From positions 1 to 32,922 of the forward strand of contig JAVBXO010000094.1 in assembly GCA_030824535.1 (NCBI GenBank): a DNA stretch of 32,922 nucleotides, in the 5' to 3' direction. The DNA comes from Azonexus sp. GTDB taxonomy: Bacteria; Pseudomonadota; Gammaproteobacteria; Burkholderiales; Rhodocyclaceae. This document shows, piece by piece, positions 4,386-12,723 of this stretch (positions are counted from its first letter, which is position 1; every line of letters starts with the position of its first letter). The notes below the pieces were generated by a model. That model did not search any database, was not told where the DNA came from, and saw only the letters and a list, made by a program, of their open reading frames with translations. The position numbers and the translations under genes are program-made.

Positions 4386-4850
4386 TCAAGGTCCGGTTTC
4401 CTTGCCCACACGCAGCAAACCGATACCGGCAGGAATGCCTCGTCCGCCAGCCAGGCCAGCCTGGCGGCTGAGCCGGAAGCGGGCAAGGTGCCCATCACGG
4501 AAAATGTAGATCAATTCCCTGGCCCCCTTGTCGAAATACCAGCAGCCGTTTTCTTGCGGCGGAAAATCAAACGCCCCGCGATACTCGGCCGGACGATCAG
4601 CAATCCAGTCCATCGGGTTGTCACTCTGCGGAAAACTGCCGCCAAAGGTTTCCCGATGTACCGCCACCTCCAGCAACTGCGCCCGTATCCCCATGACCTC
4701 CACCTGCATCCTGGCCTCTTCGGCATCGCCTTGCGCCCGGGACAGAATACGCAAGCCCGAATAGGCCAGTACGGCGATGATGATCACAACGATGGAAAAC
4801 TCATAGAGGCGGCGCATCCCGGGCCTAGCGTTTGAGTGCAACCTTGCCAA
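4386..4850 (-). CDS. mshF: MshF-like MSHA biogenesis protein
   Basis: MRRLYEFSIVVIIIAVLAYSGLRILSRAQGDAEEARMQVEVMGIRAQLLEVAVHRETFGG...DNPMDWIADRPAEYRG; between mshG and mshB. Start within the ORF is uncertain. Confidence 0.7.
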   Translation of the reverse strand: MARLHSNARPGMRRLYEFSIVVIIIAVLAYSGLRILSRAQGDAEEARMQVEVMGIRAQLLEVAVHRETFGGSFPQSDNPMDWIADRPAEYRGAFDFPPQENGCWYFDKGARELIYIFRDGHLARFRLSRQAGLAGGRGIPAGIGLLRVGKETGP

Positions 4851-6054
4851 GATCCCACATCGGCAGGAAGATGCCCAGCGCCAGGATCAGCACCATCACT
4901 CCCAGACAGACGATCAGGATAGGTTCGATCTGTTGCCCCAGGGTCTTCAGCTCGTATTCGACTTCGCGCTGATACATCTGACCGACCTCGTCCATCATGT
5001 CGTCGAGCGCGCCGGACTCCTCGCCCACGGCAATCATCTGCAAGACGACCGGCGAGAAAAATGCCGTCGCAATCGCTGCTCGCAGCACGCTTTCACCGCG
5101 CTCAACGGTATCGCGCATGCTGTCTATCCTGGCCGAGACGTAGCTGTTATCAACGGTTTGCGCGGCATTGCTCAGTCCCTGCATGAGCGGCACGCCACTG
5201 CGGGCACTCAGCGCAAAGCTGCGGGCAAAACGCGCCATGGCGGCTTTATGGATGATTTTCCCGGCAATCGGAATGCGCAAGGTCATGGTCTCCCATTGGA
5301 TGCGCCCAATGCGCGTCGCGGTCCAGCCGCGAAAAACCAGAATCGCGGCGACCAGCCCGAGCAGCATGACCCACCACCAATCGGTCATGAAATGCGAGAA
5401 GCCAAGAAGGATGCGCGTCATCAAGGGCAACTGGGCACCGAAGCCTTCGAAGACCTTGGCAAAGGCCGGAATGACAAAAATATTGACGACGACGATGGCG
5501 GCGGCCATCGCCAGCACGACAAACATTGGGTAGCGCAGGGCCGACTTCACCTGGTCACGCATATAGCGGTCAAATTCCAGGTGGTCGAAAAGACGCAGGA
5601 ATATTTCGTCCAGCAAGCCGGTGGACTCGCCAACACGCACCATGGAAATGTAGAAAGGTCCGAAAACCTTGGGATGGCGCGCCAGCGATACGGACAGTTC
5701 CCGGCCGCCCTCCAGGCTTTCACGAACGTCACGAATGACATCCCGCATCGCCGGATTGGTCGCCGACTCCTGCAAGCCGGCCAGGGCACGCATGATCGGC
5801 ACGCCGGCCTTGAGCAAGGTGTACATCTGCCGGGAAAAAAGCAGGACATCGAGGTGCTGGACACGGGGCCTGAAAAAACTCATGACATCAAAATCATCAC
5901 TTTTGCCTGTCTTGGCCTTGCCTGGCACGATGGACAGCGGCGTAATCCCACGCGCCACCAGCTGATCAGCTATCTGCCCCGAACTCTCCCCTTCAAGCAC
6001 GCCTTCAAGCAGCTTGCCGCCGGTATCACGTCCTTTGTAGGCGAAGGTCGGCAA
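4825..6054 (-). CDS. mshG: MSHA platform protein MshG (GspF/PilC family inner-membrane protein)
   Basis: MPTFAYKGRDTGGKLLEGVLEGES...LFSRQMYTLLKAGVPIMRALAGLQES...AVGEESGALDDMMDEVGQMYQREVEYELKTLGQQIEPILIVCLGVMV. Confidence 0.9.
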   Translation of the reverse strand: MPTFAYKGRDTGGKLLEGVLEGESSGQIADQLVARGITPLSIVPGKAKTGKSDDFDVMSFFRPRVQHLDVLLFSRQMYTLLKAGVPIMRALAGLQESATNPAMRDVIRDVRESLEGGRELSVSLARHPKVFGPFYISMVRVGESTGLLDEIFLRLFDHLEFDRYMRDQVKSALRYPMFVVLAMAAAIVVVNIFVIPAFAKVFEGFGAQLPLMTRILLGFSHFMTDWWWVMLLGLVAAILVFRGWTATRIGRIQWETMTLRIPIAGKIIHKAAMARFARSFALSARSGVPLMQGLSNAAQTVDNSYVSARIDSMRDTVERGESVLRAAIATAFFSPVVLQMIAVGEESGALDDMMDEVGQMYQREVEYELKTLGQQIEPILIVCLGVMVLILALGIFLPMWDLGKVALKR

Positions 6055-6059
6055 GAAAA

Positions 6060-7769
6060 TTATTCCTCGTACTGGTTGCTGATGCGCATCGCCTCGGCGA
6101 TGGTGGTCCGGCCCGTGACGACCAGGCGAACGGCATCGTGGCGCAGCGTTTCACCGGCCATCTGGGCGCGGGCAACCGTCATGAACTCGCCGAGATCCTC
6201 GTGATTAAGCGCCTGAACCACTTCCTCGCTCATATCCAGAAATTCATAAACCCCGCTACGCCCCAGGTAACCGGTATTGCCACAATGCACGCAACCGCGA
6301 CCGCGACGATAGGCGTGGGCATCGATCTGATCGCCGAGTTCGTAACGCAGCCATTCATGTTCGCCCGGCGTCGGCTTATAGGCTTCGCTGCAATTATTGC
6401 AAATCACCCGCACCAGCCGCTGCGCCAGGACCATGTTGACTGACAGCGCGACCATGTAGCGCGGCACGCCCATGTCGAGCAAGCGAATCGGCGTTGAAAC
6501 CGCATCGTTGGTGTGCAGGGTGGACAGCACCAGGTGACCCGTCATGGCGGCGCGCATGCCGATTTCCGAGGTTTCCTGGTCGCGCATTTCACCGATCAGC
6601 ACGATGTCCGGATCCTGCCGGAGCACGGTGCGCAAGACGCGGGTGAAGGAGAGATCAATCTTTTCATGAACCTGTACCTGGTTCAGGCCGGGCAGCCGGT
6701 ATTCGACCGGATCTTCAACGGTGATGATCTTCTTTTCCGAGCTGTTCAGCTCATTGAGTGCGGCATACAGGGTGGTCGTCTTGCCCGAACCGGTCGGACC
6801 GGTCACCAGCACCATGCCGCTGGGCCGCTTCAAGGCATGGCGGAAACGCTCCAGCACCCGCGTCGGCATGCCGACCATGTCCAGCCCCAGCAGGCCGGTA
6901 TCCTGGTTGAGCAGGCGCATCACCACGGATTCGCCATACTGGGTAGGCAAGGTGGAAATCCGCACATCCACCGGGTTGCCGCGCACCTTGATGTTGAAGC
7001 GACCGTCCTGCGGCAAACGCTTTTCGGAAATATCGAGTCCGGACATCAGCTTCAGACGCAGCGCAACGGCCGGCGAAACCTTGGCATCGGCTTCCGTTTG
7101 AATGTGCAGCACGCCGTCAATGCGGAAACGGATGCGCAGCAATTTTTCCAGCGGTTCGAAGTGAATGTCGGAAGCGCGCAAGCGCATGGCTTCCTCGAAC
7201 ACCGTCTGCAACAGCTTGACGACCGGGGCATCGTCCGCCCCCGGGGTCAGCCCAAGCAGATCGCCGAACTCGACCGACACGTTGCCCAGTTCTGCGGTCA
7301 ACTCCTTGGCCAAGCCGGAAATTTGCTCGGTCCGGTTATAAATGCGATCAACCAGCGCCATCAACTGGCTCTCGGTGACCACCGCCAGCTGAATATCCCG
7401 CCGGATAATGCGGCTTATTTCGTCGTAGGCCTGTAGATCAGTCGGATCGGATGTCCCGACCTGCAGACTACCGTCCGGCAGCTGATCTAGAATCAGCGCC
7501 CGGAAGCGGCGGGCCGGCGCTTCCGGCAGCAGCCTGATCAAATCAGGCTGGGGGGTAAAACTCTTGAGATCAACATAAGGAATGCGCAACTGGCGAGCCA
7601 GTGCCTGCGAAATACCTTCCTCGGTGACATAGCCGCTTTCGACGAAGACCCGCCCCAGTTTGCGTCCGGTACGCTTCTGTTCGTTGAGCGCAATTTTCAG
7701 CTGTTCTTCGGTCAGCAGACCCTGTTGAATCAGCAGATCGCCAAGGCGGACTTTTTGCGGGGGGGGCAT
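6060..7769 (-). CDS. mshE: MSHA pilus extension ATPase MshE (GspE/PilB family) with N-terminal MshEN domain
   Basis: Walker A GPTGSGKTTTLY, DPDIVLIGEMRDQET, LSTLHTNDA, and CNNC...CVHC zinc motif. ATG at 7769 is preceded by GGAG at proper spacing; the track start at 7781 is TTG. Confidence 0.92.
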   Translation of the reverse strand: MPPPQKVRLGDLLIQQGLLTEEQLKIALNEQKRTGRKLGRVFVESGYVTEEGISQALARQLRIPYVDLKSFTPQPDLIRLLPEAPARRFRALILDQLPDGSLQVGTSDPTDLQAYDEISRIIRRDIQLAVVTESQLMALVDRIYNRTEQISGLAKELTAELGNVSVEFGDLLGLTPGADDAPVVKLLQTVFEEAMRLRASDIHFEPLEKLLRIRFRIDGVLHIQTEADAKVSPAVALRLKLMSGLDISEKRLPQDGRFNIKVRGNPVDVRISTLPTQYGESVVMRLLNQDTGLLGLDMVGMPTRVLERFRHALKRPSGMVLVTGPTGSGKTTTLYAALNELNSSEKKIITVEDPVEYRLPGLNQVQVHEKIDLSFTRVLRTVLRQDPDIVLIGEMRDQETSEIGMRAAMTGHLVLSTLHTNDAVSTPIRLLDMGVPRYMVALSVNMVLAQRLVRVICNNCSEAYKPTPGEHEWLRYELGDQIDAHAYRRGRGCVHCGNTGYLGRSGVYEFLDMSEEVVQALNHEDLGEFMTVARAQMAGETLRHDAVRLVVTGRTTIAEAMRISNQYEE

Positions 7770-7846
7770 CCCAAGCTCCAAAAAACCTTAAGAAAGCTTA
7801 TTAACAATATGATTGTTACGTGAATTTCCGACAGTAGCCGTTTTTT

Positions 7847-10678: not shown

Positions 10679-10679
<1 letters not shown>
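9486..10679 (-). CDS. metZ: O-succinylhomoserine sulfhydrylase (Cys/Met metabolism PLP enzyme)
   Basis: LETLAVRAGQERSQFGEHSEALYLTSSFVFKSAAQAAKRFSGEEEGNVYARFSNPTV, PLP-lysine region VVHSATKYIDGQGRVLGG; follows purF. Confidence 0.9.
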
Positions 10680-12220
<1,541 letters not shown>

Positions 12221-12234
12221 AGTATTTTTCCTGC

Positions 12235-12723
12235 CTAGCTGAATCGAATTCGTTTTGCCAAATCGTCCGGCAGCCACTGACGGGCTACCAGTACGGCTGT
12301 TTCCAAAGGCTTCGCCAACATTGCCTGGTTCCACCAGGTCTGTCGTGGCGCTGCCGTCATGCCGCCCAGGGCGACGAGTACCATACACACCAGCACGCCG
12401 CGCAGCAGTCCGAAGAGCATACCGAGGAGGCGGTCCGACACCGAGAGCCCAAGGGCCTTGACCATGTGACTGACGAGCATGCGCACCAGTGCCATGATCA
12501 CCAGAATGCCGATAAAGACCGCCGCACAGCCGGCCATTGTCCGGATCGCCGGATCGCCCAGACCACTGAATAACTGGCCGGCCGACTCGCCAAATTCGAC
12601 ACTGGCAAAAATTGCCAGGCCCCAGGCGACCAGCGCAATGACTTCCCCGACCACGCCACGCCACAAACCAAACAGCAGCGACAGGCCGACTACGCCCAGA
12701 ACGATGTAATCAAAAGTCGTCAT
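12235..12723 (-). CDS. cvpA: CvpA family membrane protein (colicin V production)
   Basis: MTTFDYIVLGVVGLSLLFGLWRGVVGEVIALVAWGLAIFASVEFG; upstream of purF. Confidence 0.9.
   Translation of the reverse strand: MTTFDYIVLGVVGLSLLFGLWRGVVGEVIALVAWGLAIFASVEFGESAGQLFSGLGDPAIRTMAGCAAVFIGILVIMALVRMLVSHMVKALGLSVSDRLLGMLFGLLRGVLVCMVLVALGGMTAAPRQTWWNQAMLAKPLETAVLVARQWLPDDLAKRIRFS

Follow-up and report, generated by a model that had tools for sequence, protein, structure and literature searches.

A long homopolymer at the start of a gene is usually classed as a phase-variation candidate from its architecture alone. A described case close to the one analysed here is the C6/C7 tract of Bordetella bvgS, a C run within the coding region in which a one-base change truncates the product, and which demonstrates that short C tracts can phase vary (PMC1891110). 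A different kind of start is found in E. coli, where genes with CCC-C after the AUG depend on m1G37-tRNA and EF-P (Gamper et al. 2015, reviewed in PMC6335274). The mshE gene described below resembles both: it has CCC-C after the AUG, and a naturally occurring, frame-broken C7 copy exists in one related genome (G036). It differs from bvgS in that the tract has the same length in nearly all species and MutS is present, and in being one motor ATPase gene of an environmental genus, sampled here with one genome per species. It differs from the E. coli starts in that its run comprises eight Cs over codons 2-4, occurs genus-wide and is accompanied by a non-coding GGG; a dependence on m1G37 and EF-P would be by analogy. 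Among the titles and abstracts listed, no paper addressed mshE together with phase variation.

The window is the whole 32,922-nucleotide stretch that was analysed. It comes from a draft genome of 451 contigs, the closest named relatives of which are Dechloromonas and Azonexus. The minus-strand frame 7769-6060 encodes a 569-residue protein beginning MPPPQKVRLGD..., so that the start M-P-P-P-Q-K-V given in the first-pass annotation is borne out. The product exceeds the cut-offs for PF05157, PF00437 and NF053729, with an MshEN motif (the MshE-related c-di-GMP motif, residues 8-60) followed by the T2SSE ATPase domain, and it matches solved chains of PilB, PilF and the MshE N-domain. This combination is shared with the MshE-type pilus extension ATPases (MshEN domain, PDB 5htl), and the gene likewise adjoins an mshG-like gene and pilin-like genes, which lie downstream. 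In contrast to that family, the product starts MPPPQK, whereas remoter relatives mostly start MARPEK, with varied codons; it also scores below the curated NCBIfam cut-offs for PilB (550.7 against 675.65) and GspE (543.2 against 630.25), and MshE-like is therefore the right name. Elsewhere in the window, a listed GTG frame of 661 amino acids (10679-12664, minus strand) overruns the colicin V production gene by about 146 codons; this amidotransferase/phosphoribosyltransferase gene probably starts further downstream.

The features of the mshE start region are collected in Table 1. The minus strand reads TTTTTTGGAGCTTGGG-ATG-CCCCCCCC-GCAAAAAGTCCGC, and the immediate surroundings of the start codon are GGAG-CTTGGG-ATG-CCCCCCCC-GCAAAAAGTC, with GGAG six bases 5' of the ATG. 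Inspection of the sequence confirms the earlier description of a C8 run directly after the ATG (ATG-C8-G, 7759-7769), and the GGAG that had been proposed as the Shine-Dalgarno sequence is present and invariant in the alignment of relatives. The leader further upstream is probably the promoter and 5' untranslated region of mshE. It is conserved throughout the genus and is possibly a promoter or regulator site of the pilus operon. A sigma-70 promoter was rejected, as no consensus match was found in the leader.

Table 1. Features of the mshE locus in the window.
Feature	Position	Strand	Basis or remark
ATG start codon of mshE	7767..7769	-	sequence; kept in alignment
C8 tract, mshE codons 2-4 (CCC CCC CC of CCG)	7759..7766	-	sequence and orthologues
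GGG, non-coding, abutting the ATG	7770..7772	-	invariant in 38/38 distinct C8 sequences
Invariant 17-base block GGGATGCCCCCCCCGCA	7756..7772	-	alignment
GGAG, Shine-Dalgarno sequence; GGAGG in most relatives	7776..7779	-	invariant at -10 to -7
TTG sharing the mshE frame, 5' of the tract	7779..7781	-	cannot rescue a slip
TTG out of frame with mshE; in frame only with C9	7773..7775	-	frame analysis
Conserved leader; relatives read TTCATATTGTTAACGCAGTTTCTTAAGG	7784..7814	-	alignment
mshE-like pilus extension ATPase (MshEN + T2SSE), 569 aa	6060..7769	-	domains, structure matches
mshG/GspF-like inner-membrane platform protein	4825..6054	-	domain matches

The repeat is uninterrupted and placed such that a change in length breaks the frame. 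With C7, the mshE frame is closed upstream by a TAA at -31 with no start codon on the way, and translation from the ATG yields a peptide of 12 residues. With C9, the peptide from the ATG is out of frame and the nearest in-frame start is the TTG one base after the GGAG. The more distant TTG shares the mshE frame (LELGMPPP) and sits upstream of the tract, so that, as had been noted before, it offers no rescue. The statement that gain or loss of a single base would disable mshE therefore holds.

A run of eight Cs is not rare in this DNA. The window contains three matches to runs of at least seven Cs against 6.8 expected, and the genome as a whole contains 58 overlapping C8 matches, corresponding to about 46 tracts; by itself, the C8 is therefore ordinary. 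Congeneric genomes have between 18 and 127 such matches, except for two, G024 and G020, in whose 4.0 and 3.5 Mb C7 runs are absent or nearly so (absent in G024). This looks like homopolymer truncation in the assembly, and these two genomes should not serve tract studies. ATG followed by at least seven Cs occurs five times in the window's genome; only the mshE match opens a long known gene, and ATG-C7+ as a common type of start was rejected, the other four matches opening frames of 18-83 codons. By our own arithmetic, the chance of a tract lying exactly after a start codon is ~0.02 (from ~46 tracts, an assumed ~4,000 genes and 8.4 million strand positions). What is unusual about the mshE tract is its place and its conservation, and the latter is the stronger argument. 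The same genome (G000) also contains runs of C10 to C11, as deduced from overlapping C8 matches (C112:9419-9428, C112:19758-19768, C142:4378-4387 and C349:506-515); being longer than the mshE tract, these are better first candidates for slippage.

Nearly all congeneric species keep the exact tract and the GGG before the ATG, and codons 2-4 are under far stronger constraint at their synonymous sites than the rest of the gene. The genus set of Azonexus and Dechloromonas comprised 77 genomes, one per species, as assemblies only, in which minority tract lengths are hidden. The distribution of mshE is patchy: 34 of the 77 genomes, several of them complete, lack an orthologue. The other 43 orthologues (31 from the first search and 12 from later ones) were not picked for C8, and 39 have exactly eight Cs (ATGCCCCCCCCG). 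There is no C9 among the 43 and no other length that would keep the frame (C5, C11). The exceptions are G036 (C7, frame broken), G074 (CCACCCCCG), G069 (GCCCCCCCG, MAPP) and G013 (MARPSE). G036 and G074 branch from within the C8 sequences in the gene tree, which makes both of them derived. Outside the genus but within the family, we found C8 in G240, CCACCCCCG in G088 and CCCCCACCG in G174. Three sequences (L091, L202, L204) keep Pro-Pro-Pro with other codons. All 38 distinct C8 sequences have the GGG at -3 to -1, although it was not a selection criterion, and it is retained in two sequences with unrelated leaders (L181 and L191).

Of the 140 fourfold-degenerate sites in 35 genes of the Pro-Pro-Pro type, most show several changes and those of codons 2, 3 and 4 only one each; nine of the remaining 137 sites have two changes or fewer. 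In 33 C8 genes, six of 149 fourfold sites are invariant, three of them being codons 2-4, a figure that only describes this set because the genes were picked for C8. In the rest of these genes CCC is a minority proline codon (177, against 570 CCG), and the third positions of codons 8-10 vary freely. The first-pass annotation had suggested looking for length heterogeneity in related genomes, and had named an invariant length or synonymous interruptions in close relatives as evidence against a switch. Heterogeneity was not found beyond the single C7, which may be an error. Invariance applies to the across-species part, at 39 of 43, and interruptions occur in part, namely in G074 (inside the C8 clade), G088 and G174.

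The C7 allele of G036 deserves separate description. This genome is a single contig, complete by estimate, with the broken mshE around G036:C1 2391688 (L215). The rest of the gene is open, with a dN/dS of 0.055-0.073 against the six nearest relatives; 172 pairs of comparable identity gave a median of 0.07, which indicates normal purifying selection. Within 60 kb around it, no other broken gene was seen among the genes compared with the window, and the one split match corresponds to the listed 10679-12664 frame, which is too long and runs into the colicin V production gene. The ratio of C8 to C7 runs in G036, 27 to 148, is low yet inside the range of other genomes. Genome-wide homopolymer truncation as the source of the C7 was not seen. 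The allele may reflect a recent slip, an OFF phase, or a single local error of assembly or base calling.

The reading first put forward for this tract was a phase-variable switch, in which the pilus motor is turned OFF and ON as slipped-strand events add or remove a C, and an unbroken run is favoured by selection because it can slip. Part of this stands: the C8 is uninterrupted and lies in a surface-appendage motor gene, a C7 removes every in-frame start, and G036 supplies a natural example in a genome where no general homopolymer truncation was seen. But a switch predicts variable length and is silent on the GGG, whereas the data show fixed length and a fixed non-coding GGG that has no role in slippage; for comparison, three close species of Bordetella differ in 74% of their long homopolymers (PMC1891110). 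The synonymous interruptions also count against it, as does MutS: it was found in 13 of 13 genomes tested (in the window's own genome only as a piece at a contig end), which gives no sign of a mutator background. Overall, the switch is weakly supported and we consider it unlikely. We put a similarly low probability on the view that the start is nothing special, Pro-Pro-Pro being conserved as protein and its codons being held by ancestry and general selection for an open, fast start. The C8 coding does rank, on average, seventh of 64 synonymous codings in predicted openness of the Shine-Dalgarno sequence, its region is predicted to be less stable than with most synonyms, and the three sequences that retain Pro-Pro-Pro through other codons are also in its favour. 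On the other side, CCC CCA CCG and CCC CCG CCG are predicted to be more open, yet the former occurs in one genome only and the latter in none; the GGG would reduce openness by pairing with the Cs; and the third positions of the nearby codons 8-10 are free. Amino-acid selection alone leaves the frozen CCC CCC CCG unexplained.

Less likely still, and in our estimation improbable, is a small RNA structure in which the GGG pairs with the C run, holds the AUG in a loop and so controls initiation. Predicted folds place the AUG in the loop of a GGG-CCC stem in eight C8 leaders, and L202, which has lost the full C8, has lost the GGG too. Against this, the C8 coding is predicted to destabilise the region relative to most synonyms, G074 keeps the GGG without C8, and the invariant columns leave covariation without a signal either way. 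The predicted stem is weak, and the folding is compatible with a structural role without calling for one. A known RNA element was rejected, as the mshE start region has no match in Rfam. CsrA, a usual reader of GGA at start sites, was found in none of 16 genomes, with a control search positive in E. coli, B. subtilis and T. maritima; CsrA binding at GGAUG was accordingly rejected. A C-rich ribosome-binding element was also rejected, given that the literature on such elements deals with C-rich sequence 5' of the AUG and finds pure poly-C poor (PMC3310771).

The mshE C8 looks more like a constrained translation-start sequence than a gain/loss switch. We propose, with moderate confidence, that it is part of a conserved translation-start element, GGAGG-N2-GGG-AUG-CCC-CCC-CCG, which is selected at the level of nucleotides and not only for Pro-Pro-Pro. 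Synonymous interruption is tolerated in G074, G088 and G174, which speaks against this proposal, and ordinary selection for an open start may explain part of the pattern, as judged from the predicted Shine-Dalgarno accessibility. We infer that initiation and the earliest steps of elongation are where the constraint acts. This location is favoured by the frozen codons and GGG taken together with the literature on CC[C/U]-[C/U] motifs, Pro-Pro-Pro and EarP; the force that holds the element would be translational, and its link to EF-P and TrmD is drawn by analogy with E. coli.

The m1G37 modification on tRNA is made by TrmD. CC[C/U]-[C/U] motifs are prone to +1 shifts, which m1G37 suppresses most strongly next to the start codon, and the GGG isoacceptor needs EF-P as well as m1G37 (PMC6335274). 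Three consecutive prolines stall the ribosome when EF-P is missing (PMC4176338), and E. coli proteins have an excess of polyproline motifs close to their N-termini (PMC5811046). The arrangement expected of an m1G37/EF-P-dependent start, CCC followed by C at the second codon, is present in mshE (AUG-CCC-CCC-CCG), and all 16 of the 16 genomes searched encode EarP, the rhamnosyltransferase of EF-P. In one of these, a one-contig genome, the EarP match is split over two overlapping frames (G045:C1:3076454-3077508), either by a frameshift or by a sequencing error. With CCC then C at codons 2 and 3, mshE would have the coding that is most shift-prone next to an AUG and most dependent on m1G37 and EF-P, and the three prolines would stall the ribosome without EF-P; TrmD-made m1G37 and EF-P would thus set the pace of MshE output, which would respond to changes in either. 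An occasional slip at the DNA level, as perhaps in G036, would be a cost of the sequence rather than its purpose. Rather doubtful, in our judgement, is the further proposition that, through the genus-wide GGG-AUG-C8-G, the cell's state of proline decoding (TrmD m1G37 and rhamnosylated EF-P) governs whether a pilus motor that binds c-di-GMP is made; rare DNA slips would be a by-product and would give rise to lineages lacking the motor.

A few dozen relatives point away from what architecture alone would suggest: both the length of the run and its synonymous sites are frozen, and so are three non-coding bases. Should the translational reading hold, it would link pilus assembly in an environmental group to EF-P and the modification of tRNA, and would offer a natural test of why a cell keeps the most slip-prone proline coding beside a start codon.
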